From positions 1-43,881 of the forward strand of contig NZ_CAJYBT010000031.1 in NCBI RefSeq assembly GCF_913064665.1: a DNA stretch of 43,881 bases, read 5' to 3'. The notes beneath the pieces were generated by a model. It made no database searches. It was not told the origin of the DNA and saw only the letters and a list, made by a program, of their open reading frames with translations. The stretch comes from an uncultured Thioclava sp. Lineage in GTDB: Bacteria > Pseudomonadota > Alphaproteobacteria > Rhodobacterales > Rhodobacteraceae. Position 1 is the first letter of the stretch. Each line of letters begins with the position of its first letter. The position numbers were made by a program, and so were the translations under genes. Shown here piece by piece: positions 12,050-43,334 of the stretch.

Positions 12050-13099
12050 TTAGTTCGCGGCGGGCGCGGGCTTGGGATAGCCGGTGCCCAGAACCACGCC
12101 ATCCACCGTTTCACCGTAAAAATCCTCGCTGCTTTTGTGCCATTTCTTATCGGCCTCTTGCAGCGTGATCGCCCCGGTCTGGCGCGGATCCTTGGGCCGG
12201 GGGTGGCTGTCGAGAAAGGTCGCCACGTCCCACGCCTCTTGCGCGCTGAGTTTGCCGGGTTCCGACAGCGGCATGTTGTGCTGGATAAAGGCCGCAGCCG
12301 AGCTGGCCTTGTGCATGCCAGCCCCCCAGTTGAAGCTATGCGGGCCCCAAAGCGGTGGGAAAACCGTCTTGCCGTTTACATCGGTCTGGCCCAGTCCGTC
12401 CTTGCCGTGACAGACCGCGCAGTTGGCGGCAAACACCTGTGCCCCGCGCTCACGCGAGGGGGGCAGTGCGGGTTTGTCAATCTTGCCAAAGCCTGCGCCA
12501 TCCGGCGTCTCGCCAATCGGTAAGCCTTTGGACATCCAGTAGAAATACGATTGCAAATCGCGATACACATCCGAGCCGTAGGGCGGCGGCCCACCCGAGG
12601 GCGAGCCTTGCGCGTTCATCGAATAGGTGAAGCAGCCCTTGATCCGATCCTCCATGGTGTTCACCATTTTATTCTTGGAGCGGTATTTCGGATAGACCGG
12701 ATAGGCCGCCCACATCGGCGCGGAAAAGGCTTGTCGCCCGGCATCGAGGTGGCAGTTCGAACAGCTCAGGTTGTTGCCCACGAAGTCATGCGCATTGGTC
12801 CCGGTTGCGGTGAAAATCGCCATGCCGCGGCGCACCGAGGCCCCGAATTCGTCGTTCGGGATGGTGCTTTCGGGGGGCGGCGTGAACAGGTCGGCCATCG
12901 CGCCCTTGGGCGATGCCGCCGGCACGGATTTCTGTCCCGTCAACCAGCTTGGGGCAAGGCCGAACTCAAGCACAAGCGAACCCAGAACCGCCAGCGTCAG
13001 CCCCCCGCCGACCGCAAGGATCGCCCGGATCGCGGTGCGCCCGCCCTTGGCACTATCTGGGCCAGGGGGCGTGGTGTCAGAGGGGTGCTTACTGGACAT
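12050..13099 (-). CDS. TsdA-like dihaem cytochrome c, putative thiosulfate dehydrogenase
   Basis: A 349-residue protein with one N-terminal membrane anchor (residues 23-48) and two haem c sites: LSCSNCHLDAG (CSNCH at 113-117) and NCAVCHGKDGLG (CAVCH at 227-231). Between them stands EDRIKGCFTYSMNAQG, whose Cys156 sits in the position of the unusual axial cysteine ligand of TsdA haem 1 (known from Allochromatium). TsdA couples two thiosulfates to tetrathionate. The ATG at 13099 has AAGGAG upstream and overlaps the triheme gene by 11 bp, making it the last gene of the oxidase operon. The anchor instead of a cleaved signal is compatible with direct electron delivery to the oxidase. Other dihaem SoxA/TsdA relatives remain possible. 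Confidence 0.7.
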   Translation of the reverse strand: MSSKHPSDTTPPGPDSAKGGRTAIRAILAVGGGLTLAVLGSLVLEFGLAPSWLTGQKSVPAASPKGAMADLFTPPPESTIPNDEFGASVRRGMAIFTATGTNAHDFVGNNLSCSNCHLDAGRQAFSAPMWAAYPVYPKYRSKNKMVNTMEDRIKGCFTYSMNAQGSPSGGPPPYGSDVYRDLQSYFYWMSKGLPIGETPDGAGFGKIDKPALPPSRERGAQVFAANCAVCHGKDGLGQTDVNGKTVFPPLWGPHSFNWGAGMHKASSAAAFIQHNMPLSEPGKLSAQEAWDVATFLDSHPRPKDPRQTGAITLQEADKKWHKSSEDFYGETVDGVVLGTGYPKPAPAAN

Positions 13100-14378
13100 T
13101 CGTGGTCTCCTTGAGGGTAGGGGAAACGGCCAGTGCCGTCTTGGCATTTCCCGCAGCAGGGGGCAGCGAGGCGAGATAATCCGCCACCGCGCGGCGATCC
13201 TCATCGCTCAAGGCTTTGCCAATCCCGGCCATCAGGCCAAGCGGGGAATTGTGGCGCGCACCACCGGCCCACATCGCGAGTTGATGCGCGATATAGGCAG
13301 GTTGCTGGGCGGCCAGGCCGGGGAATTGTGCCCCCACACCAATGCCCGACGTGCCGTGGCAGGTGAAGCAGGCGGGCACGTTCTTGGAATAGTCGCCCGA
13401 AAGCGCGAGTTGCTCTCCGCGTGCCAGATCGCCCTTGAGCGCGGGTTGTGCGCCCGACGGGCTGCTCATCGCGCCGTAGTAATTCGCCAACTCGGTAATT
13501 TGCGTCTCGCTCAGCGATTTCGCCACATAGGCCATCGAGTCGCTGATCCGCGTGCCTTTGCTGAAATCATGCAGTTGTTTGGCCAGATAGGCAGGGGCAA
13601 GCCCGGCAAGGCGGGGCACGGTTTGCGTGCCTTCGCCCTTGTCGCCGTGGCAGCTCGCGCAAGACCAGATATTGGCCGTGCCTTGGCTGGCCAGACTGGC
13701 CGTAGCGGTGGCCTCGGGGCTTGGGGCGCTGGCGTTTTCGCTGGCGGGTTGCGGGGGGAGGCCATTGATCAGGCTTGCCAGACCTGCGCCGCCATCCCAA
13801 GGGTCCATATCTTCGCTCGCCGTGCGGATCTCGGCCACCTGATCTGGAGAGACCGTGGAGTTCATGCCGTTGAGATCGGTGGCGACGTAATCGGCGATAG
13901 CCGCGATCTCGGTATCGCTAAGGACCGAGCTGAAGCTGGGCATCTCGCCGTCGTAATTCGCCTTGTCCACGATCAGCGGCCCGCCGATGCCGCGCATCAC
14001 GATCTGGCTGATGGCACTCGCGCCACCGGCTTTGATCACATCCGAGGCATGCAGCGGCGGGATCGCATCGGCGACCCCTTCGCCCGCATCGCCATGACAG
14101 CTTGAGCAGTTATCGGCAAACAGCGCCTTGCCCGCGCCCGTGTCCGGCGCAGCCGTGCTGGCGGCGGGGCTTGCGACGCTGGCCGTTTTCTCGCCCAAGG
14201 CGGCGCGTTCCTTATCGGCGAAATGGCCCGCATTGCTGGTTTGCACCAAGGTCACAACGCCCCAGATCGCCAGCGCAATCGCGATCCAATACACCGGCAG
14301 CGGGATCAGGCGGGGCTCTTCATAGGGTTCGAACGTCTCATCGGGGAGCCGCGGGTCTTGCTTGTTCTTTTTGGACAT
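13089..14378 (-). CDS. Membrane-anchored triheme cytochrome c, CcoP-type N-terminus fused to cytochrome c4-type dihaem
   Basis: A 429-residue protein. Residues 1-25 are cytoplasmic and acidic (LPDETFEPYEEPRLIPLP), followed by one membrane helix (29-46), as in CcoP/FixP. Haem sites are CSSCH at 91-95, CASCH at 240-244 and CFTCH at 337-341. The first domain ends with the single-haem CcoP-like pattern GEMPSFSSVLSDTEIAAIAD. The second and third form a tandem with PRLAGLAPAYLAKQL and FPGLAAQQPAYIAHQL, each the LAG-x-Y-x-QL pattern of cytochrome c4. Known: CcoP normally has two haems in about 290 residues. Here a soluble electron donor appears fused to the oxidase subunit. GGGAGACGAG precedes ATG 14378. 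It lies 17 bp after ccoO. Confidence 0.8.
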   Translation of the reverse strand: MSKKNKQDPRLPDETFEPYEEPRLIPLPVYWIAIALAIWGVVTLVQTSNAGHFADKERAALGEKTASVASPAASTAAPDTGAGKALFADNCSSCHGDAGEGVADAIPPLHASDVIKAGGASAISQIVMRGIGGPLIVDKANYDGEMPSFSSVLSDTEIAAIADYVATDLNGMNSTVSPDQVAEIRTASEDMDPWDGGAGLASLINGLPPQPASENASAPSPEATATASLASQGTANIWSCASCHGDKGEGTQTVPRLAGLAPAYLAKQLHDFSKGTRISDSMAYVAKSLSETQITELANYYGAMSSPSGAQPALKGDLARGEQLALSGDYSKNVPACFTCHGTSGIGVGAQFPGLAAQQPAYIAHQLAMWAGGARHNSPLGLMAGIGKALSDEDRRAVADYLASLPPAAGNAKTALAVSPTLKETTNVQ

Positions 14379-14395
14379 CACTCGTCTCCCTTGGC

Positions 14396-15049
14396 TCACT
14401 GCGCAGCCTTGGCGGCATCGGTTTGCGGCATTTGCCGGGCGTCGATCTGGGCATAGCCATTGTCGCGCAGCCCATCGCCGGGCGGGGCATAATCATGCTT
14501 CATGCCTTGCAGGTAGCTCACCAGATCAAGCGCATCCTGATTGGCCACGATCACCCCGGTTTTGGGCGCGTAGGCGGGGGGCAGTTTGACCACCACATCC
14601 GTAGGGCCTGCCTTGTCCTTATGGGTGAACAGGAACGGATAGGCGGGCATGATCGACCAGTTCGAAATTGCGCGCGGCTGATAGAGATGGGTCAACTGCC
14701 AATCCTGCGAGGGCAGGCGATCCCCGATATTCATCAGATCGGGTCCGGTGCGCATCGTGCCCAGCTGATGGGGCGCGTCATAGGCGTAATCGCCCGCAAC
14801 CGAGGCCCGACCCCAACCGCGTTCGCCATCGGGGGCCTGCGCCTCATCGCGGGGCTGCTGGCTGTGACAGTAAAGGCAGCCCATCGAGACATAAACCGCG
14901 CGCCCGCGCGCCTCGGCCGCGGTGTAGGGTTTGAGCCCGGGGGCCACCCCGTCGGCGGCAATCTGCATGCCCGGCACGATCACCAGCAACAGAGTGGCAA
15001 AGGCCAAAATGGCCAGCGATACAATCGCCAGAGGAAGATAGCGGTTCAT
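14396..15049 (-). CDS. ccoO: cbb3-type oxidase subunit II, monohaem cytochrome c (CcoO/FixO-type)
   Basis: A 217-residue protein with one N-terminal membrane helix (residues 6-30) and a single haem motif, GCLYCHSQQPRDE, exactly where CcoO has its GCYxCHSQ. Downstream APHQLGTMRTGPDLMNIGDR and SIMPAYPFLF give the conserved G-x-x-R-TGPDL segment and the methionine ligand in IMPAYPF, both CcoO hallmarks. It passes electrons from the outer cytochrome to the catalytic subunit. The start overlaps the ccoN stop as ATGA. It is close to the usual CcoO length of 200-240. The C-terminal 25 residues (ARQMPQTDAAKAAQ) look disordered. Confidence 0.88.
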   Translation of the reverse strand: MNRYLPLAIVSLAILAFATLLLVIVPGMQIAADGVAPGLKPYTAAEARGRAVYVSMGCLYCHSQQPRDEAQAPDGERGWGRASVAGDYAYDAPHQLGTMRTGPDLMNIGDRLPSQDWQLTHLYQPRAISNWSIMPAYPFLFTHKDKAGPTDVVVKLPPAYAPKTGVIVANQDALDLVSYLQGMKHDYAPPGDGLRDNGYAQIDARQMPQTDAAKAAQ

Positions 15050-16620
15050 TGGGCAGCCACCATGGTTTCGGTTTCAAGGTCACGCGTGCGCTTGGTGAAG
15101 GCGAGGGCGATCAGGTTCACCGCCAGCAGGATATGGCCAAGCGTCATCAGCCCTCCGCCCAGCGAGCGTCCTTCGAGATAGGGTTTGAGCAGCGTCACGC
15201 TATCAGCAAAGGGGCGCGTCGCATCCATCATCGCCAGACCTTGCAGCACGCCGCCGATGGTCAGCGAGAAGAAGTAGATCGCGAACCCCACTACCACCAG
15301 CCAGAAATGCCATCCGATCAGGCGCGGGAAGGGAAAGTATTTGCCCGTCGCGCGTGGCACGATCTGATAGATCGCCCCGAACAGCACGAGGCTGACAAAG
15401 GCATAGGCCCCCAAATGCGCGTGCCCGATCGTGTATTGCGTGAAATGGGTGATCGTGTTGACCGAGCGTAGCGCCTCAATCGAGCCCTGGAACGAGGCGA
15501 TGGTGTAGCTCAGCGCGCCAAACCAGATGAAGCGCAGCGGCATCGACGCCTTGAGCGCCCACATATTGCGCGCCACCGTCACGTGCTGGTTGATCGCCAC
15601 CGCGATGACGGGCACGAACATCATGATCGAATGCACGATCGACAGCGTTACCAGCCATGTCGGCACCGGCCCGCCGATCAGGTGGTGAATGCCGACCTGG
15701 CTGTAAAACAGCGCCAAGGCCCAGAACCCCACCAGCGACACCGCGTAGGAATAGATCGGTTTGCCGATGATTTTCGGGATGAAGTAATAGGCCGTGCCTA
15801 CGCCCAGCGGCGTCAGCCACAGGCCCAACACGTTATGGGCAAACCACCAGTTCATCGTGGCTTGCTCCACCCCCCAATGCAGGCCGGGGATATTGGCGAT
15901 GACGAATAGCACGGGAAACCACAGCACGGCGGCCAGGAAATACCAGCCCGAGACGTAGATGTGATGCACCGTACGTGCGCGCGTCGTCGCGATCAGGGGG
16001 GCTACGAAACAGGCCGCGCCAATGGCCAACGCAATGTCGATCTGCCACGGGATTTCCAGCCATTCCAGCCCGTCGGTCCAACCATTGGCAATCGCTGCCA
16101 CCCCGGCAACCAGCGCGAGGTTCCAGATCAGCGTGCCCAGCTTGACCATCCAGCCCAGCCGCAGCGGCGTGTGAAAGATCCGCGGGATGATCCAGAAGAT
16201 CGCGGCCAGCCCGGCTTGGCTCGACCAGCCAAAGATCACCGAGTTGAGATGCACGGTGCGCATCCGCCCAAAGGTCATCTGCGCCGAGCCGCTCATCAAA
16301 TCGGGCAGGTTCAGTTCCAGCGACGCCGCAAGCCCGTGAATCGAGCCGTAGATCAGCCAAAATACCCCCATCCCGATTAGCCACATCACTGGCCCCGAGG
16401 ATGATTTGTCGATGCCGCTGCGCTCGGTATCGAAATGGTGGGGTTGGGTGGGGGGGGCGATCTCGGCCCCTTCACCGGGCTGAAAAATCGAGCGGGCATC
16501 GTCTTGGTCAGGCGCGTGAACCTGTTTGTTTGCGATCGCCCAGATCAATGCCGACAACGCCAGAAGCGAGACGACAAAGCTTAGGGTAAGCAACAGGCCG
16601 AGCGTGGGGGTGATTTGCAT
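15046..16620 (-). CDS. ccoN: cbb3-type (C-family) haem-copper oxidase catalytic subunit with CcoS-like N-terminal extension
   Basis: A 524-residue polytopic protein, longer than the usual ~475. Haem and copper ligands are all present: His124 (RTVHLNSVIF) and His402 for low-spin haem b, His400 for haem b3 (YTIGHAHLGA), His262 (WWFAHN), His312 and His313 (GIHH) for CuB, and Tyr306 (LFYSQVGIHH) at the cross-linked tyrosine position. This pattern fits an oxygen reductase rather than a NorB-type nitric oxide reductase, whose helix carries extra glutamates. Residues 1-50 add a membrane helix followed by ALIWAIANKQVHAPDQDDAR, similar to the maturation protein CcoS. No ccoQ, ccoG or ccoI genes lie nearby. 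First gene of a four-gene operon. Confidence 0.88.
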   Translation of the reverse strand: MQITPTLGLLLTLSFVVSLLALSALIWAIANKQVHAPDQDDARSIFQPGEGAEIAPPTQPHHFDTERSGIDKSSSGPVMWLIGMGVFWLIYGSIHGLAASLELNLPDLMSGSAQMTFGRMRTVHLNSVIFGWSSQAGLAAIFWIIPRIFHTPLRLGWMVKLGTLIWNLALVAGVAAIANGWTDGLEWLEIPWQIDIALAIGAACFVAPLIATTRARTVHHIYVSGWYFLAAVLWFPVLFVIANIPGLHWGVEQATMNWWFAHNVLGLWLTPLGVGTAYYFIPKIIGKPIYSYAVSLVGFWALALFYSQVGIHHLIGGPVPTWLVTLSIVHSIMMFVPVIAVAINQHVTVARNMWALKASMPLRFIWFGALSYTIASFQGSIEALRSVNTITHFTQYTIGHAHLGAYAFVSLVLFGAIYQIVPRATGKYFPFPRLIGWHFWLVVVGFAIYFFSLTIGGVLQGLAMMDATRPFADSVTLLKPYLEGRSLGGGLMTLGHILLAVNLIALAFTKRTRDLETETMVAAQ

Positions 16621-36534: not shown

Positions 36535-37563
36535 TCAGGCGGACTTGGGTTCGGCGTCGTTGATTTCAACGGTGAACGTACCGTCCTTGATCGCCGCGGT
36601 TTGCGCAGTGACCTTATCGAGTGCCGCTTGCGGGATCTTGCCTTCAAACGTGCCGAACGGGGCCAGCGAACAACCGCCCTCTTTCATAAAGGAATACATG
36701 CCGTAATCGGCGGCGCTGAAACTGCCCGCGCGGATTTGCTCAATCGCGTGATCCAAGGTTGGCTCGAAATGCCACAGCGCCGAGGCGACGACCGTATCGG
36801 GATAATCGGTCTGGGTGTCGATAACATTTCCAATGGCCAAAACGCCCTTTTCCTTGGCCGCGTCGGATACGCCAAAGCGTTCCGCATACATCATATCCGC
36901 ACCGTTCTCGATCATCGCATAGGCGGTTTCCTTGGCCTTGGGCGGATCGAACCAAGACCCGATGAAGGCGACCTGAAAGGTGATATTCGGGTTCATCTCG
37001 CGCGCGCCCGCCATGAAGGCATGCATCAGACGGTTCACCTCGGGGATCGGAAAGCCGCCGACCATCCCGATATTGCCCGCTTTCGACATCGCTCCGGCAA
37101 TGATTCCAGACAGATACGAGGCGTCTTGAATGTAGTTGTCAAACACCGACAGATTGCCGATTGCCGGGTCTGGTTTGAACGATGAGCCCAGCAGGAAGGC
37201 CACATCGGGATAGTCGGCTGCGACCTCGCGGGCCTCTTGCTCGACGCCGAAAATTTCGCCCACGATCAGGTCATAGCCGCCCTCGGCGTATTCGCGCATG
37301 ACGCGTGGGTAATCGGTATTGGCGGTGTTTTCGGAATAGGTGTAGCTGACATCGCCGCGATCTTGCGCGGCCAAGGCGGCAAGGTGGATGCGGCTGACCC
37401 ATTGCTGCTCGACCGGGACGGTGTAGATGCCCGCCACTTTCAGCGGCTTGGCATCTTGCGCAAAACCGCGCCCCGGCATCGCCCCGTAAAGCGCGGCTCC
37501 GGCAAGGCTTGTTTGAAGAAATGTGCGGCGCGAGGGGGCATTGAAGCGGGTCTTGGCAGCCAT
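36535..37563 (-). CDS. BMP-family (BmpA/PnrA-like) nucleoside-binding protein with Tat signal
   Basis: A 342-residue periplasmic binding protein. A twin-arginine signal is visible (SRRTFLQTSLAGAALYGAMP, cleavage near GFAQ at about residue 36), unusual compared with lipoprotein versions. BMP-domain landmarks are VAGIYTVPVEQQWVSRIHLA, then REYAEGGYDLIVGEIFGVEQ, VGGFPIPEVNRLMHAFMAGA, NPNITFQVAFIGSWFDPPKA and DMMYAERFGVSDAAKEKGVL. It binds purine or pyrimidine nucleosides, or nucleobases, for the downstream importer; coupling with cytosine deaminase favours a pyrimidine or nucleobase ligand. AGGAGA stands before the ATG. First gene of the operon. Confidence 0.93.
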   Translation of the reverse strand: MAAKTRFNAPSRRTFLQTSLAGAALYGAMPGRGFAQDAKPLKVAGIYTVPVEQQWVSRIHLAALAAQDRGDVSYTYSENTANTDYPRVMREYAEGGYDLIVGEIFGVEQEAREVAADYPDVAFLLGSSFKPDPAIGNLSVFDNYIQDASYLSGIIAGAMSKAGNIGMVGGFPIPEVNRLMHAFMAGAREMNPNITFQVAFIGSWFDPPKAKETAYAMIENGADMMYAERFGVSDAAKEKGVLAIGNVIDTQTDYPDTVVASALWHFEPTLDHAIEQIRAGSFSAADYGMYSFMKEGGCSLAPFGTFEGKIPQAALDKVTAQTAAIKDGTFTVEINDAEPKSA

Positions 37564-37895: not shown

Positions 37896-38336
37896 GTGAT
37901 CGGCCCGCATTTGCGGGGTCGGTTTGCGCGTTTGCGCCGCACGCTTTGGGTGCACGTTTTCGCGCTGTTTGCGATGTGCGTTCAGGTGCTGTTTTACGCC
38001 GATCACATCGGTGCTGCCGCAGCCGCCGAGATGGGGCGTGCCCCCGCAGGAGCGCGCCTGGGCCTTTTGCAGATCTGTACCGGCGAGGGCATCATTCTGA
38101 TGACGCCCGATGGGCGCACCGTGCCCAATGCGCCCGCCCATCCCGGCCATGACGGGGGGCAATGTTCGGTTTGCACCAGCGCCAGTGTGTGCGGTTTTGA
38201 TGCCCCTCCCGCGATGGCGATGCCGATTTTTCAAGCGCAGTTGATCGTGCCCGCGCGGGTGGTTTTGCCCGCACCCCCGGCGCGAATTCTGCTTGCACGC
38301 ACCCTTCGACCGATCCGCGCGCCCCCAATCCTGTGA
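37896..38336 (+). CDS. DUF2946-like small membrane-anchored protein
   Basis: A 146-residue protein as drawn. A basic stretch (RGRFARLRRTL) precedes a membrane helix (WVHVFALFAMCVQVLFYADH), then an outside part with LQICTGEGIILMTPDGRTVP, a His-rich HPGHDGG and the cysteine cluster CSVCTSASVCGFD, a DUF2946-like pattern. DUF2946 proteins often lie beside copper-related genes. The GTG at 37896 is chosen for a GGATGG site 5 bp upstream; ATG 37842 in the same frame would add 18 residues but has no site. It precedes the nosL-type genes in the same direction, with 133 bp between. Metal binding through the Cys/His cluster is inferred. Confidence 0.65.
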   Translation: MIGPHLRGRFARLRRTLWVHVFALFAMCVQVLFYADHIGAAAAAEMGRAPAGARLGLLQICTGEGIILMTPDGRTVPNAPAHPGHDGGQCSVCTSASVCGFDAPPAMAMPIFQAQLIVPARVVLPAPPARILLARTLRPIRAPPIL

Positions 38337-38469
38337 CGCGATCCCTTCGCGATGGCCCTCTGCGCGCGTGAAAACGCCGCGATCGGGCCCGCGCGACTCT
38401 TGCCCATTTTGACTATTTTCGTGTCGCCGGCCTGTCGCCGAGCGCGCCTTAAGTTCACAGGATAACACC

Positions 38470-39072
38470 ATGAAACGTCGTGACTTTCTGATCACTACCT
38501 CTACCGGGATGCTGCTGGCCGCCACCCAAAGCGCAAATGCGGAAATGACGATGCCGCAATCGCCGATGGCTTGGACCGATGAGAACGGGCTCGCCCGGTT
38601 TCTGAAAACCGACACCGACCCGCTGACCAATGAGTTCGAGAAATATCCCCGCTGCCCCTATTGCGGGATGATGCGCAAGATGTTCAGCCAGACCCGCCAC
38701 CTGATCGTCTATGAAGACGACGCGGTGGATGGCACGTGCTCGCTGCATTGCGCGGCGATCAGCTTGGCGCTGAACCTCGATCGCATGCCGAAGGTGATCT
38801 ATGCAGGCGACGCCGGGGCCGCAGGCGAGGTCAAGCCGCTCGTCGATAGCGCCGCGATGACCTATGTGATCGACCCCGCCCGACCCGGCACGATGACGGC
38901 CGTGTCGAAATACGCCTATGCCGATAAGGCGCAGGCCGAGGCCGCCGCTGGCCCCGATGCCAAGCTGGCCGATTTCGATACCGCGCTGGTGGATGCCTAT
39001 AACGGCATGGCGCAGGACACGATCCGCATTCGCAAACGCCGTGCCGAGCGGCGCGCGCGCGCGGGTAACTAA
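38470..39072 (+). CDS. NosL-family protein 1, with CPYCGMM and CSLHC sites
   Basis: A 200-residue exported protein. The N-terminus MKRRDFLITTSTGMLLAATQ looks like a Tat-type signal, cleaved near SANAE. NosL-type copper site: RCPYCGMMRK with Cys62, Cys65, Met67, Met68; a second cysteine pair is in DGTCSLHCAAISLAL (Cys90, Cys94). Known: NosL carries Cu(I) to nitrous oxide reductase through conserved Cys/Met residues. The second half (YVIDPARPGTMTAVSKYAYA) fits the NosL beta fold, and the tail is strongly basic (RIRKRRAERRARA). AGGA precedes the ATG. No nosZ is in the window, so the client is unknown. A hairpin follows before the second NosL gene. Confidence 0.85.
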   Translation: MKRRDFLITTSTGMLLAATQSANAEMTMPQSPMAWTDENGLARFLKTDTDPLTNEFEKYPRCPYCGMMRKMFSQTRHLIVYEDDAVDGTCSLHCAAISLALNLDRMPKVIYAGDAGAAGEVKPLVDSAAMTYVIDPARPGTMTAVSKYAYADKAQAEAAAGPDAKLADFDTALVDAYNGMAQDTIRIRKRRAERRARAGN

Positions 39073-39080
39073 GCCCTGAT

Positions 39081-39107
39081 GCGCGCCCGGTATCGCGCCG
39101 GGCGCGC
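39081..39107 (+). terminator. Hairpin between the two nosL-type genes, probable attenuator
   Basis: GCGCGCCCGG and CCGGGCGCGC form a perfect 10-bp GC-only stem with loop TATCGCG, 8 bp after the first nosL-type stop. There is no U-tract (AAGCC follows), so it is more likely a stabiliser or attenuator than a full terminator. Confidence 0.6.
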
Positions 39108-39136
39108 GCAAGCCTCCTTTGCTGAAAGGACATCTC

Positions 39137-39676
39137 ATGTGTCAGTCCTGCGATGAAACCCGGCCCTCGCGCCGCGCCGTTTTGGGCCAGTTTGCCGCGA
39201 TCACTGCGGCGCTGGGTCTGGGAGTTGTGCCTGCGCGCGCGGATGCGCCGCTGGTCGATCTGCCCCCTCCCGGGCCGCAAGATACCTGCCCGGTCTGCGG
39301 CATGTTCGTGGCGAAATACCCCGAATGGATCACCACGGTGCTGTTTGCCGATGGCCATGCCGATCATTTCGACGGCCCCAAGGATTTCTTCAAATACTTG
39401 CAGGATATGGGGAAATACGCCCGTGGACGTACCGCCGATCAGATTGTTGGCATGGGCGTGACCGAATATTACGGACTTAAGCTGATCGACGCGCATGACG
39501 CGATCTACGTGCTTGGATCGGATGTGCTTGGCCCGATGGGGCATGAGCTGATCCCGCTGATGAACCGGGCCGATGCCGATGATTTCACCAAGGATCACAA
39601 GGGCAAGAAAGAGGTCGCGTTCGGCGATGTGACGCCCGATATGCTTGTGGTGCTCGACGCGGGCGGGGCGATATGA
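39137..39676 (+). CDS. NosL-family protein 2, with CPVCGM site
   Basis: A 179-residue exported protein. Residues 1-36 hold a Tat-like signal (SRRAVLGQFAAITAALGLGV, then ARADAP), unusual in that MCQSC at 1-5 adds a CxxC before it. The NosL site TCPVCGMFVAKYPEW has Cys51, Cys54, Met56. The following WITTVLFADGHADHFDGPKD and FFKYLQDMGKYA match the NosL domain better than paralogue 1, and it closes with GHELIPLMNRADADDFTKDH. AAAGGA lies 7 bp before ATG 39137. The stop overlaps the next start as ATGA. Probably a periplasmic Cu(I) metallochaperone; divergence from paralogue 1 suggests different partners. Confidence 0.88.
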   Translation: MCQSCDETRPSRRAVLGQFAAITAALGLGVVPARADAPLVDLPPPGPQDTCPVCGMFVAKYPEWITTVLFADGHADHFDGPKDFFKYLQDMGKYARGRTADQIVGMGVTEYYGLKLIDAHDAIYVLGSDVLGPMGHELIPLMNRADADDFTKDHKGKKEVAFGDVTPDMLVVLDAGGAI

Positions 39677-40011
39677 ACATGCCGCGCCGCCGCTCTGGCC
39701 CGGTCTTTGTTGGCTTTGGTGTGCTCGGCGCGGCGCTGCTGTTCGAGCTGTATTTCGTCGCTTTCGCGGGCCCCGCGACCCGCGCGCGCCTTGATCGCGA
39801 AGCCGGGTTGGTGGCCGATCTTGGCTTGACGGACATCGCGCTGTTTACCGAAGCGCGCTACACCCGCCACCCGTCGCTGGCCGATCTCAACACCCCGTTT
39901 CAGGACCATCCGATGGCCTTTGACCACTTCCCATCGGGCTCAATCATGCCCGTGCCCCGGCTGCCCGGCGAGGGCTGGCTAATCTTTCAACCCAAGGAGC
40001 GCGGCCAATGA
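39673..40011 (+). CDS. Small membrane-anchored protein of the NosL/ABC cassette
   Basis: A 112-residue protein: basic N-terminus (MNMPRRRSG), one membrane helix (PVFVGFGVLGAALLFELYFV), then a periplasmic part of about 80 residues containing ARYTRHPSLADLNTPFQDHP and MAFDHFPSGSIMPVPRLPGE, rich in His, Met and aromatic residues but with no cysteine. It overlaps both neighbours by 4 bp (ATGA), so it is an integral member of the operon. Family not recognised. The single anchor and His/Met content would fit a metal relay or a periplasmic adaptor for the ABC permease, but this is inference. Confidence 0.75.
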   Translation: MNMPRRRSGPVFVGFGVLGAALLFELYFVAFAGPATRARLDREAGLVADLGLTDIALFTEARYTRHPSLADLNTPFQDHPMAFDHFPSGSIMPVPRLPGEGWLIFQPKERGQ

Positions 40012-41150
40012 TGACCTGGGCCCGACGCCAGCGCGCGCTGGCCGATTATACGCTGGCCGCCCTGTCGCGCCGCAAGGGTAAGAATATCGCGCTGGTTGCG
40101 ATCTTTTCGCTGGTGGTATTCGCGCTGTCCTCGGCGATGTTTTTCGCCGCCGCCTTGCGCCATGAAACGACGGTTGTGCTGCGCGATGCGCCTGAAATCG
40201 TTGTGCAAAAGCTGATCATGGGGCGTCAGGATCTGATCCCCGGCGATGTGGTGGAAACGATCGCGGGGTTTCGCGGCGTGACCTCGGCCAAGGGGCGGCT
40301 GTGGGGCTATTATTACGACCGCATTAACGGCGCGAATTACACCGTTATGGTGCCCGACGATCCCGCGCTGATCCCGCCCGTGGGCTATGTCGCGGTGGGC
40401 GAGGGCGTGCCGCGTGCGCGTGGTCTGGCATGGGAGGGCGCGCCGCTGTTCCTGTCGCGCTATGAGGGCGATCTGAAACGCTTTGACGTGGATCGCACCT
40501 TCAGTCGCGACTCGGCGCTGATGACGGCGGATCTGGTGTTGATGAACCCGCAAGATTTCCGTGCGTTTTTTGACATTCCCGAAGGGCTGTACACCGATGT
40601 GGTCGCCACCGTGCGCAACCAGAATGAGGTCGCGACTATCGTGACCAAAGCCTCTAACGCCTCGCCGCAAATGCGCTTTGTCACCCGCGCCGATATCGAA
40701 CGCACCTATCAAAAGCTGTTCGACTGGCGCGAGGGGCTGCTGGTGGTGCTGGCGGGCGCGGGGCTGCTGGCCTTCGCAATTTTCGCGGCTGAAAAGGCGT
40801 CGGGCCTGTCGGCGGAAGAGGCGCGCGAGATCGGCATTTTGAAAGCCGTGGGCTGGGACACGCGCGACGTGATTGCGATGAAGATGTGGGAGGGCGGGCT
40901 GGTCTCGCTGGGCGCATTCCTGATCGGCACGGTCGCGGGGTTTGCGCATGTGTTCTTGTTCGATGGCGTGCTGTTCGCGCCCGTGCTGCGTGGCTGGGCG
41001 GTGATTTATCCTGATTTCGCGCTGGCTCCGCATATCGACGGGGTGCAACTGATGACGCTGGCCTTGCTGACGGTCGTGCCCTACATGGCCGCGACCGTGG
41101 TGCCGGTCTGGCGCACTGCCTCGGGTGATCCCGATGCGGTCATGCGATAG
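40008..41150 (+). CDS. MacB/LolCE/FtsX-type ABC transporter permease
   Basis: A 380-residue permease with the FtsX layout: helix 1 at about residues 24-48 (IALVAIFSLVVFALSSAMFF), a periplasmic domain of ~190 residues beginning AALRHETTVVLRDAPEIVVQ, and three C-terminal helices (GLLVVLAGAGLLAFAIFAAE, GGLVSLGAFLIGTVAGFAHV, LMTLALLTVVPYMAATVV). The coupling segment AREIGILKAVGWDTRDV is the classic motif of this family. Type VII ABC systems transmit ATP-driven motion to periplasmic domains instead of moving small solutes, so here it may power a periplasmic metal or thiol transfer or extract a protein. It overlaps the previous gene by 4 bp; one copy only, so it would form a homodimer. Confidence 0.9.
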   Translation: MMTWARRQRALADYTLAALSRRKGKNIALVAIFSLVVFALSSAMFFAAALRHETTVVLRDAPEIVVQKLIMGRQDLIPGDVVETIAGFRGVTSAKGRLWGYYYDRINGANYTVMVPDDPALIPPVGYVAVGEGVPRARGLAWEGAPLFLSRYEGDLKRFDVDRTFSRDSALMTADLVLMNPQDFRAFFDIPEGLYTDVVATVRNQNEVATIVTKASNASPQMRFVTRADIERTYQKLFDWREGLLVVLAGAGLLAFAIFAAEKASGLSAEEAREIGILKAVGWDTRDVIAMKMWEGGLVSLGAFLIGTVAGFAHVFLFDGVLFAPVLRGWAVIYPDFALAPHIDGVQLMTLALLTVVPYMAATVVPVWRTASGDPDAVMR

Positions 41151-41160
41151 GAGCGGCAAG

Positions 41161-41871
41161 ATGATTACCCTGAACGCGGTTACCAAACTGTATAATGAGG
41201 GCCGACCCAATGAATTCGCGGCCCTGCAAGAGATCGACCTGACGCTGGCGCGCGGCGCGATGAGCGTGCTGCGCGGGCCTTCGGGGTCGGGAAAGACCAC
41301 GCTTTTGTCGATCCTCGCCTGCATGGCGCGCCCGACCTCGGGGCGGGTCAGCATCGATGGCGAGCTGGTGTCGGGGCTGCCGGAACGCTTTTTGACCGAG
41401 CTGCGGCGCACCACATTCGGCTTTGTGTTTCAACGCTTTAACCTTGTGCGCGGATTGACGGCGCTGGAAAACGTGATGCTGCCCACGGTGCCGCTTGGCG
41501 CGGATTACGGCCAGACGCGCGACAAGGCAATGGCGCGGCTTGAGGCGCTGGGGCTGGCCGATAAGGCCGCCATGCCGATTGAACACCTGTCGGGCGGCGA
41601 GGCGCAGCGCACCGCGATTGCGCGCGCGTTGATTAACGACCCGCCGATCCTGATTGCCGATGAGCCGACCGCCAATCTCGACACGGCCTTGGCCGAGAAA
41701 TTTCTCGCCATCCTCGCCGAAGAACGCGCAGCCGGACGCACCGTTATTCTCACCAGCCACGACCCGCGCATCTGGGAGGCCGAGGGCGTAGACCGCATTG
41801 TCACCCTGCGTGACGGGCGCATCGTCGAGGGTGAATTGGCTGAGGGCGTTTTGGGTGAGGATGTCGCATGA
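41161..41871 (+). CDS. LolD/MacB-type ABC transporter ATPase
   Basis: A 236-residue ATPase with all functional motifs: Walker A GPSGSGKTT, Q-loop FGFVFQRFNLV, signature LSGGEAQRTAIARAL, Walker B ILIADEPTANLD and the switch histidine in ILTSHDPRIWE. Its size and the FQRFNLVRGLTALENVMLP segment place it with the LolD/MacB group that pairs with FtsX-type permeases. AGGAG lies 7 bp before ATG 41161, 10 bp after the permease gene. The stop overlaps the next ATG by 4 bp. Energises the neighbouring permease. Confidence 0.93.
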   Translation: MITLNAVTKLYNEGRPNEFAALQEIDLTLARGAMSVLRGPSGSGKTTLLSILACMARPTSGRVSIDGELVSGLPERFLTELRRTTFGFVFQRFNLVRGLTALENVMLPTVPLGADYGQTRDKAMARLEALGLADKAAMPIEHLSGGEAQRTAIARALINDPPILIADEPTANLDTALAEKFLAILAEERAAGRTVILTSHDPRIWEAEGVDRIVTLRDGRIVEGELAEGVLGEDVA

Positions 41872-42866
41872 TCTTTCAGCCTCCGATCCTCGCGCTGCTG
41901 ATGGTGGCGGCTTTGGCGGCGCTGGTTGCGCTCTGGAGTGGGGCCTTCGCGATCCGCGTGCTCGCGCGCTGGGACATGGCCAATATGAGCCGCGCGCAGC
42001 TCCGCATGGAACGCATGGCCGAGCTGGTCTCGACCCTGTTTGGCGCGGTGATGCTGGCGGAACTCGCGGCGCTATTGCTGTTCGTGTTCAATTCCGACCG
42101 GATGGCCTCGCTGTTTGTAGGCGCGATGTGTGCGGTGGGCACGCTGAATGTGAACGCTTACGGCTTTCCCGCGCTTTATCTGAAGATCGGGGTGTTTTTC
42201 GCCGCAACGCTCTGGCTGATTTTGGATCACGCCGATCGGTTGGGGCGGGATTTTCCGCTGACAAAAGTGAAATACGCAGCCCTTCTGGCGATTGCGCCGC
42301 TGATCCTTGCCGATGGCGCGACCGAGCTGGCCTATTTCCTCAACCTGCATACCGATGTGATCACGTCCTGCTGCACCAAACTGTTCACGCCCAATAATCC
42401 GGGGCTGGCCAATCACATGGCTTCGATCGGTGAGGGCACGGCACTGGTCTGGCTGAGCGTCATCGCGCTGGCGGTGGCGGGCAGCGGGGCCTATGTGATG
42501 CTGCGCAAGCGGGGCTATTGGATCTATGCGCTGGCTTCGGGGGCGCTGTTTGTGGCGGGGTTGACTGCGATTGTCGCGACGATTTCGCTCTATATCTATG
42601 AAGATCCGAACCACCATTGCCCGTTCTGCATCCTCAAGCCGGAATACGGGTATTTCGGCTACGTCCTTTATGTGCCGCTGTTCTTCGCAACAGCGATGGG
42701 GCTGGGGGCGGGACTATTGCAGCCCTTCGCAAACATCCCAAGCCTCAAGGGCAAGTTGCCCGGCCTGATCGCGCGCCAAGTGGTCTGGTCGATGATCGGC
42801 TTTGCGCTGTTCGGGCTGGCGGTGATCTGGGCGATTGCACGCTCGCATCTGATCCTGTTCGGCTAA
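41868..42866 (+). CDS. Polytopic membrane protein with Cys-Cys and HHCPFC sites
   Basis: A 332-residue inner-membrane protein with about eight helices. Two cysteine pairs stand out: ITSCCTKLF (Cys168, Cys169) and PNHHCPFCILKPEYGYFGY (His249, His250, Cys251, Cys254), both placed between predicted helices and so possibly on the same face. Other conserved-looking parts are ADGATELAYFLNLHTDVITS and GVFFAATLWLILDHADR. The family has no function known to me. Placement at the end of a NosL/ABC operon and the Cys/His clusters suggest Cu(I) or disulfide exchange across the membrane, in the manner of CcdA or VKOR proteins, though it resembles neither in sequence. It converges on the next gene with a 3-bp gap. 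Confidence 0.8.
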   Translation: MIFQPPILALLMVAALAALVALWSGAFAIRVLARWDMANMSRAQLRMERMAELVSTLFGAVMLAELAALLLFVFNSDRMASLFVGAMCAVGTLNVNAYGFPALYLKIGVFFAATLWLILDHADRLGRDFPLTKVKYAALLAIAPLILADGATELAYFLNLHTDVITSCCTKLFTPNNPGLANHMASIGEGTALVWLSVIALAVAGSGAYVMLRKRGYWIYALASGALFVAGLTAIVATISLYIYEDPNHHCPFCILKPEYGYFGYVLYVPLFFATAMGLGAGLLQPFANIPSLKGKLPGLIARQVVWSMIGFALFGLAVIWAIARSHLILFG

Positions 42867-42869
42867 GGA

Positions 42870-43334
42870 TCAGCGCGCCGGCAGCGGCCCGCCCATATCC
42901 AGCCCCGTGGGCATAGCGCCCGCGCGCGCCGTCTCGATGCGTGCCCAAAGGGCGGGGTCGGCCTCATCTGCGGGCCAAACGCCGGTCAGCGCATAGGCAA
43001 AACGCGCCGAATGGCGGGCCTCGCGTTCGATCTTGTCGATGAAATCCGCGCCGTAATCTGTGATCAAATCCTCTAGCGGACCCGCAGAAAGCATCACCAC
43101 CTGCCAGATCGTCTTGCACCCCGCGAGCGCCTGACGGATGAACGCCCAAAGCACATCCGGATGCTCGCGCAGCTCGAACACGCACAGCACCGACCACGGG
43201 AAATCCTCGCCCTCGGGTTCATCGCGGTTATCGGCCAGCCACAGCGCCACAAGCGCCTCGACCGAATGCACATCTTCGGGCGCATCGGCGGCCTTGCACA
43301 GCACGGAAACCAGTTCGAGGGGCAGAGGTGTCAC
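42870..43334 (-). CDS. DUF6869-like hypothetical protein
   Basis: A 154-residue cytoplasmic, acidic protein. The segments LREHPDVLWAFIRQAL, AGPLEDLITDYGADFIDKIE and RHSARFAYALTGVWPADEAD resemble the DUF6869 pattern (E-H-P ... W-x-F-I, A-G-P-L-E-D-L-I, A-R-x-x-x-x-F ... L-x-G-V-W). It starts with GTG at 43334, which overlaps the prfC stop as GTGA, and AAGGAG stands upstream within prfC, so translation is coupled. Function unknown; proteins of this type are often encoded as isolated small genes. A link to translation through prfC is only positional. Confidence 0.75.
   Translation of the reverse strand: MTPLPLELVSVLCKAADAPEDVHSVEALVALWLADNRDEPEGEDFPWSVLCVFELREHPDVLWAFIRQALAGCKTIWQVVMLSAGPLEDLITDYGADFIDKIEREARHSARFAYALTGVWPADEADPALWARIETARAGAMPTGLDMGGPLPAR

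Follow-up and report, generated by a model that had tools for sequence, protein, structure and literature searches.

We analysed a 43,881-nucleotide stretch of DNA from an uncultured Thioclava sp. (hereafter, the window), which is contig 31 of a 94-contig, 99.99% complete draft genome (label G000; G-numbers denote genomes and L-numbers the loci read in them). Seven co-directional open reading frames (ORFs) occupy positions 37896-42866 of the + strand, as had been proposed from the sequence in an earlier note (hereafter, the original prediction), and encode, in order, a DUF2946-like product, two NosL paralogues (NosLa and NosLb), a 112-residue anchored protein, an FtsX-type permease, an ATP-binding cassette (ABC) ATPase and a 332-residue membrane protein. 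The flanking long ORFs (36535-37563 and 42870-43334) are both on the opposite strand. We refer to the seven genes as the cassette, and its features are as follows.

37896-38336, + strand: probable CruR-type (DUF2946) upstream ORF (PF11162, 23.1 bits), with the published CruR features CXXC-47-RAPP-2-stop; start codon uncertain; C90-S-V-C93 at about 38163-38174, RAPP codons at 38316-38327, stop codon at 38334-38336
38337-38469, + strand: 133-nt intergenic leader; a stretch richer in C than in G runs into it from the upstream ORF, starting at the 3' end of the latter (about 38268-38345)
38470-39072, + strand: NosLa, exported NosL paralogue (PF05573; CPYCGM, CSLHC and Met142; structure model)
39137-39676, + strand: NosLb, exported NosL paralogue (PF05573; CPVCGM and GPMG; sequence match to NosL chains 7osf, 7znq and 7og7)
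39673-40011, + strand: small anchored protein, single helix at the N terminus (by eye), no Pfam family, present in 25 of 28 loci
40008-41150, + strand: FtsX-type (type VII, LolCE-MacB-like) ABC permease (PF02687)
41161-41871, + strand: ABC ATPase of the FtsE/LolD/MacB group (Pfam and NCBIfam profiles)
41868-42866, + strand: 332-residue polytopic membrane protein without an assigned family (C88, C168-C169, H249-H250-C251-P-F-C254)

Two NosL paralogues and a new membrane protein

Three 4-bp overlaps join NosLb to the anchored protein, the anchored protein to the permease and the ATPase to the 332-residue protein. The original prediction had described four genes as joined by such overlaps; the permease and ATPase genes are separated by a 10-bp gap, and NosLa and NosLb, the latter probably starting at ATG 39137, lie 64 bp apart. 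The motifs that it listed (CPYCGMM, CSLHC, CPVCGM, Cys168-Cys169 and HHCPFC) are all present as given.

Both NosL proteins score above the PF05573 cut-off of 24 bits (NosLa, 30.4 bits, E = 5.6e-7; NosLb, 94.8 bits, E = 7.1e-27), in agreement with their earlier description as divergent paralogues. Each combines a CXXCXM motif with a second methionine (C62, C65, M67 and M142 in NosLa; C52, C55, M57 and M135 in NosLb, with numbering that starts one residue ahead of the NosLb ATG), residues that are discussed as Cu(I) ligands of NosL, whose members bind Cu(I), in the available portion of PMC6530538. The CSLHC motif is confined to NosLa, where a comparison of 13 sequences shows no variation at C90, S91 or C94, and no lipobox cysteine was seen by eye in either protein. 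By sequence, NosLb matched solved NosL chains weakly (E = 0.003-0.004) and NosLa matched no solved structure; for the NosLa model (predicted local distance difference test score, pLDDT, 85), all of the top five Foldseek matches in the PDB were NosL chains (best E = 7.9e-4, probability 1.00, TM-score by query length 0.42-0.49). A NosL search of G000 listed NosLb only and overlooked the divergent NosLa, so that another divergent NosL may lie elsewhere in this genome.

The permease matched Pfam FtsX (E = 6e-9) and the ATPase matched ABC_tran (E = 4.2e-31), which bears out the predicted FtsX-type transporter pair. Scores against curated models of the best-known relatives fell below their cut-offs (lolCE equivalog, 23.9 bits versus 362.45; LolD, 174.5 versus 307.75; MacB, 180.2 versus 966), and ATPase and permease are separate genes, not fused. 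Lipoprotein release was rejected as a function on the LolCE and LolD scores. The anchored protein had no Pfam match up to E = 1, and its homologues share the pattern LTD..L....ARYxRH...AD....FQD.P....HFP.G.

Searches with the 332-residue protein gave no significant match in Pfam (best E = 0.26, chance level), NCBIfam (0.086) or, by sequence, the PDB (0.51). Its AlphaFold2 model consists of eight long helices (pLDDT 88; predicted template modelling score 0.87) and had no Foldseek match in the PDB at E <= 0.001 (best 0.099). C88, C168, C169, H249 and C251 are invariant in all 28 sequences of the protein, while C254 is kept in 27 and H250 in 26. All of these conserved residues sit in loops on one side of the model, where lysines and arginines, flanks included, number 4 versus 13 on the opposite side; by the positive-inside rule, the cysteine- and histidine-bearing loops are therefore predicted to face the periplasm. 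The protein can be assigned to no known family and carries its conserved cysteines and histidines on the predicted periplasmic face.

A probable CruR-type leader at the head of the cassette

The first gene had been taken for a DUF2946-like anchor. Its likeness to DUF2946 stands as a near miss (23.1 bits, E = 1.3e-4, slightly below the PF11162 cut-off of 23.7), but the assignment as an anchor probably does not: the ORF very probably encodes a CruR-type regulatory leader, as its C-terminal part consists of a CXXC motif (C90, C93), 47 residues, RAPP, two residues and the stop codon. CruR is a DUF2946-type copper-responsive upstream ORF of Bordetella pertussis whose operon stays on under copper scarcity; copper relieves a ribosome stall, and transcription then ends (PMC9426467, partial text). 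CruR-type ORFs are recognized by a CXXC motif 45 residues (within 1-2) ahead of a RAPP near the C terminus and by their place as the first gene of an operon with a long gap downstream. The window ORF has a spacing of 47, its upstream neighbour is on the other strand, and 133 nt separate it from NosLa in the predicted operon.

A leader of this type heads each of the seven alphaproteobacterial cassette copies observed (the window, L002, L003, L009, L010, L018 and L011). The CXXC-RAPP spacing is 47 in L002, L003, L009 and L010 and 45 in L018, and the L011 leader has CXXC with RGPP. Gaps between leader and NosLa, taken for the window and five of its relatives (L002 was left out), measured 133 nt in the window, L003 and L010, 120 nt in L009, 141 nt in L011 and 279 nt in L018.

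The 3' end of the leader ORF contains a stretch with an excess of C over G, as in Rho entry sites. Because 116 of 2000 regions drawn at random from the window had a maximum at least as high, and 121 (L018) to 1158 (L011) of 2000 did so for the relatives, this stretch is only suggestive of a Rho entry site in the leader. The predicted RNA fold of the intergenic region was unremarkable (z = -1.58).

Conservation of the cassette in other genomes

Homologue searches, which covered samples rather than all GTDB species, found the 332-residue protein in 4 of 292 genomes of the same order, 7 of 398 of the same phylum (Pseudomonadota sample), 11 of 321 from the class of G548 and 9 of 146 Myxococcota, the phylum of a Myxococcales metagenome-assembled genome (L004). 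Together with three further loci, one of them found again in Myxococcota, and with double counts removed, the carriers total 31 genomes. We profiled 28 loci outside the window, six of which had served to build the profiles; G736 and G782, whose matches lie at contig ends, were left out.

The order permease-ATPase-332-residue protein is kept in all 28 loci, and the anchored protein lies directly upstream of the permease in 25 (the exceptions are L053, L072 and L074). Within the stretch read, 25 loci have a co-directional NosL gene, a number that rises to 26 when L019 is joined with L024, which places NosLa and NosLb about 15 kb downstream. L072 and L074 come from two genomes of one genus, and the upstream side of L074 stops at a contig edge. 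The complete seven-gene set occurs in the same order in L002, L003, L009, L010, L011 and L018. Thioclava indica (L003), the only named isolate among the relatives found, has a 332-residue protein 94% identical to that of the window; per-gene identity of the window cassette is 86-97% to L003 and 56-79% to G088, and identity of the 332-residue protein drops to 26% in L023, the most divergent copy.

The original prediction had called for a search for co-occurrence of the 332-residue family with NosL and FtsX genes, a co-occurrence that proved to be conserved in other genomes, and had named a lack of joint conservation of the neighbours as an outcome that would count against it, which did not occur. 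A chance cluster was rejected because the same neighbours are kept across the loci of other genomes, and spread on known plasmids was rejected because a tblastn search of 72,556 plasmid records gave no match at 1e-5.

Relation to nitrous oxide reductase and other possible clients

The gene for nitrous oxide (N2O) reductase, nosZ (PF18764), had no match anywhere in the G000 draft assembly; its absence, first remarked for the window, thus extends to the draft genome, and a nosRZDFY operon just outside the window, which might have accounted for the NosL proteins, did not turn up. Neither NosD nor a NosY-type permease is among the families of the seven proteins, and a nos operon fragment was rejected since G000 has no nosZ. 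Whether carriers of the cassette have nosZ, a question raised by the original prediction, received a mixed answer: nosZ is present in 16 of the 31 carriers and was not found in the other 15. By batch, it occurred in 7 of 10 genomes (none in G000, G088 and G292), 0 of 3, 4 of 9 Myxococcota and 5 of 10 new carriers, with G665 counted in both the first and the third batch.

One alternative, which we regard as unlikely, is that the cassette is a stand-alone maturation aid for N2O reductase and a relic where nosZ has been lost. The 16 nosZ-bearing carriers and an enrichment over background in Pseudomonadota speak for it; against it, the nosZ-free carriers include G000, G088 and Thioclava indica, all with the seven genes intact, and in the 16 bearers nosZ is separated from the cassette by over 0.9 Mb or occupies a different contig (the contig order of drafts is unknown). 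Moreover, among seven nosZ regions fetched, those of G325 and G305 have a separate NosL-like gene, detected by profile, near nosZ. A further NosL candidate near nosZ in G250 (L035), seen by eye, had no Pfam match at E <= 1e-4 and was not counted. The missing nosZ in G000 and other carriers indicates that N2O reductase is not an obligatory client. The cassette is thus not the nos maturation set, but the two may be connected through an auxiliary role or through a lifestyle that their bearers have in common. In G548, L034 (5948-12952) contains two nosZ genes (774 and 768 residues) that are separated by about 4.7 kb, with c-type cytochrome-like genes nearby (by eye).

The statement that NosL is known only for N2O reductase proved too strong. 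NosL is tied to N2O reductase in beta-proteobacteria (PMC6769254, partial text), but a Parageobacillus NosL-NosDFY locus lacks NosZ (PMC13068155, partial text), and among 14 control genomes NosL family matches occurred in Bacillus subtilis and Haloferax volcanii and the nosZ family in none. According to the accessible parts of two further papers, neighbours of CutF-like genes include NosL (PMC8456105), and a NosL of Bizionia argentinensis has a P-type ATPase, CcoG and a TonB receptor among its neighbours in gene order (PMC11213822); copies of the cassette are possibly among the CutF-like neighbourhoods of the former.

Other enzymes were considered as clients. NirK was rejected as a shared client, having been found above its cut-off only in G245 among 13 genomes. 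The COX1-type matches of G000 comprise four oxidases, of which one is a CcoN above the model cut-off, one CyoB-like below cut-off, one CtaD-like by eye and one a divergent cbb3-like enzyme encoded in the window. These identifications, by model or eye, led us to reject NO reductase as a client in G000; G088 has a COX1 that looks NorB-like by eye but was given no name by any NCBIfam model at E <= 1e-60. The divergent cbb3-like cluster of the window (12050-16620, - strand) encodes a CcoN-like protein (265.7 bits against a ccoN cut-off of 583), FixO, a c-type cytochrome and a SoxA/TsdA-type cytochrome.

Copper and redox genes near other copies

Several other copies are accompanied by copper or redox genes. 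P-type ATPases exceed the cut-off of copper model TIGR01511 in four extended clusters (L019, L021, L069 and L070); the same proteins score lower, though still above cut-off, against the cadmium-family model TIGR01512. MbnP and MbnH are encoded divergently from NosLa in L049. AhpC-TSA/thioredoxin proteins were found in 11 of the 28 loci (L019, L020, L021, L022, L050, L068, L069, L070, L071, L073 and L075) and DsbD_2 (TauE/SafE) proteins in at least eight (L019, L020, L021, L022, L068, L069, L071 and L073; L070 by eye). The cluster of G548 includes a TonB receptor whose CPNHM site fits the CxxxM part of the OprC site given in the available text of PMC7558416; as an OprC equivalog, it scored below cut-off (TIGR01778, 124 bits versus 472). 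The window cassette itself has none of these extras (P-type ATPase, thioredoxin, TauE/SafE, MbnP/MbnH or TonB genes), nor resistance-nodulation-division (RND) genes.

The thioredoxin-fold and DsbD_2 neighbours, the cysteine-rich 332-residue protein and the CXXC motifs in both NosLs would suit a system that is mainly a thiol-disulfide relay (TlpA-like thioredoxin, TauE/SafE, 332-residue protein and NosL), in which the ABC unit drives conformational change and copper is involved indirectly. We assign this alternative a low probability, since the CruR-type leader, the copper-type P-ATPases and the MbnP/MbnH neighbours indicate copper and NosL proteins bind Cu(I) (PMC6530538, partial text). Least probable is an efflux or detoxification system for copper or another soft metal. 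It would accord with the P-type ATPases that pass both metal models, with the frequent position of CutF-like leaders upstream of Cus-type efflux genes (PMC9973294, partial text), and with L023 (12616-16742), where genes for an RND transporter (ACR_tran, 649 bits) and for an HlyD-type adaptor are oriented divergently from NosLb. A CXXC/RAPP leader speaks against it, since copper turns down the operon of a CruR-type leader (PMC9426467, partial text). RND genes were seen by eye in L023 only, the other loci having had no profile search for RND.

Two side observations concern these neighbourhoods. In L069 and L070, several TauE/SafE-like genes (GHC[V/I]GMCG, by eye) flank the cassette beside the copper-type P-ATPase. 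In L071 (13180-15471), two ORFs with identical first 55 residues lie between the gene for the 332-residue protein and the thioredoxin gene; the one tested is an ISL3-type transposase.

A proposed copper-handling machine

We propose, with a probability of roughly 0.6, that the cassette encodes a copper-starvation-induced, ATP-driven machine of the cell envelope for periplasmic Cu(I) handling and delivery, analogous to NosDFYL. A link to copper is highly likely, and induction by copper scarcity, by analogy with CruR, is probable; an ATP-driven hand-over of Cu(I) is more tentative. The sequences show the gene identities, their conserved order, the motifs of leader and NosL, the NosLa fold, the invariant residues and the copper-related neighbours; from these we infer the induction under copper limitation, the direction (supply, not efflux), the ATP-driven transfer and the client. 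The conserved loci support the original prediction of a NosL-NosL-FtsX-ABC-membrane protein system that is independent of nosZ and probably has a role in copper metabolism.

In copper famine, the CruR-type leader would stall ribosomes and the operon would be transcribed. NosLa and NosLb, once exported, would pick up and carry periplasmic Cu(I). The FtsX-type permease and the ATPase would form a type VII ABC unit that performs mechanical work on periplasmic partners, helped by the anchored protein; by pulling on the 332-residue protein or on NosL, it would cause Cu(I) to be passed on at the membrane. The 332-residue protein might accept or donate Cu(I) as the partner in the membrane, or might hold carrier thiols reduced, and thioredoxin-type neighbours, where found, could hold the cysteines reduced. 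Cu(I) would then reach membrane and periplasmic cuproenzymes. In G000, the likeliest clients would be its four heme-copper oxidases; N2O reductase is possibly a client in other genomes. In its most specific form, which we consider conceivable but somewhat doubtful, the anchored protein, the FtsX-type ABC unit and the 332-residue protein constitute a new kind of Cu(I) transferase, powered by ATP, which at the membrane would load NosL carriers with copper or strip them of it in copper famine, for cuproenzymes other than N2O reductase and chiefly for heme-copper oxidases.

Several observations weigh against this proposal. nosZ is over-represented in carriers, with 5 of 7 carriers versus 56 of 391 other genomes in the Pseudomonadota sample (Fisher p = 0.0012) and 4 of 9 versus 25 of 137 in the Myxococcota sample (p = 0.077), statistics that are uncorrected for kinship and ignore draft incompleteness; a link to denitrification is therefore possible. 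CutF, a CruR relative with CXXXC, responds to copper in the opposite sense (PMC9973294, partial text), so that the sign of regulation rests on CXXC/RAPP similarity and is not certain. In 23 stretches from other classes, no ORF of at least 50 residues combined CXXC with a terminal RAPP or RGPP, and a DUF2946-like leader immediately upstream of the anchored protein in L076 (11513-11920) has RAPP at its end but no CXXC, possibly as a sensor-less or differently sensing form. Neither NosL nor the anchored protein was found in the DNA read for L072 and L074. The RND transporter and adaptor of L023 could fit efflux, and the TonB receptor of G548 scored higher against the heme-receptor models TIGR01785 and TIGR01786 than against the copper-receptor model, all below cut-off.

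The routing of copper to periplasmic and membrane cuproenzymes under scarcity is only partly known. If the proposal is correct, the cassette represents an ATP-powered copper route that employs NosL outside N2O reduction and includes a previously undescribed family of membrane proteins whose cysteine and histidine face is conserved, and its CruR-type leader predicts how it is regulated. Genes of the nosL family are an unsafe marker of N2O reduction.

Comparison with known systems

Literature on NosL and DUF2946 was searched for the cassette and no description was found, consistent with its designation as undescribed; most subscription papers lay outside this search. The closest functional parallel is NosDFYL, which delivers copper to N2O reductase and has a NosL Cu(I) carrier beside an ABC transporter (PDB titles 7osf-7osj and 7znq), as predicted for the cassette. 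The cassette differs in having no NosD-like gene, a permease of FtsX type that belongs to another ABC superfamily, and two NosLs in which no lipobox cysteine was seen by eye, whereas the NosL of N2O reductase is a lipoprotein; it adds the 332-residue membrane protein and the anchored protein, and does not require nosZ.

With the CruR operon of B. pertussis (bp2923-bfrG-bp2921), the cassette shares a DUF2946-type leader with CXXC and RAPP 45-47 residues apart near the stop codon, which is the first gene of the operon and is followed by a long gap. The downstream genes differ, encoding a TonB receptor and PepSY_TM in the CruR operon and NosL, the ABC unit and the 332-residue protein in the cassette; the synteny account in the available part of PMC9426467 does not name NosL. 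LolCDE, MacB and FtsEX, type VII systems, resemble the cassette in pairing an FtsX-family permease with an FtsE/LolD-type ATPase, but the cassette scores far under the curated LolCE and MacB cut-offs and has copper-related partners. The Parageobacillus locus likewise combines NosL with an ABC system in the absence of nosZ, but uses NosD, NosF and NosY where the cassette uses an FtsX unit and the 332-residue protein, and its authors suggest another copper recipient for NosDFY-NosL without NosZ (PMC13068155, partial text).

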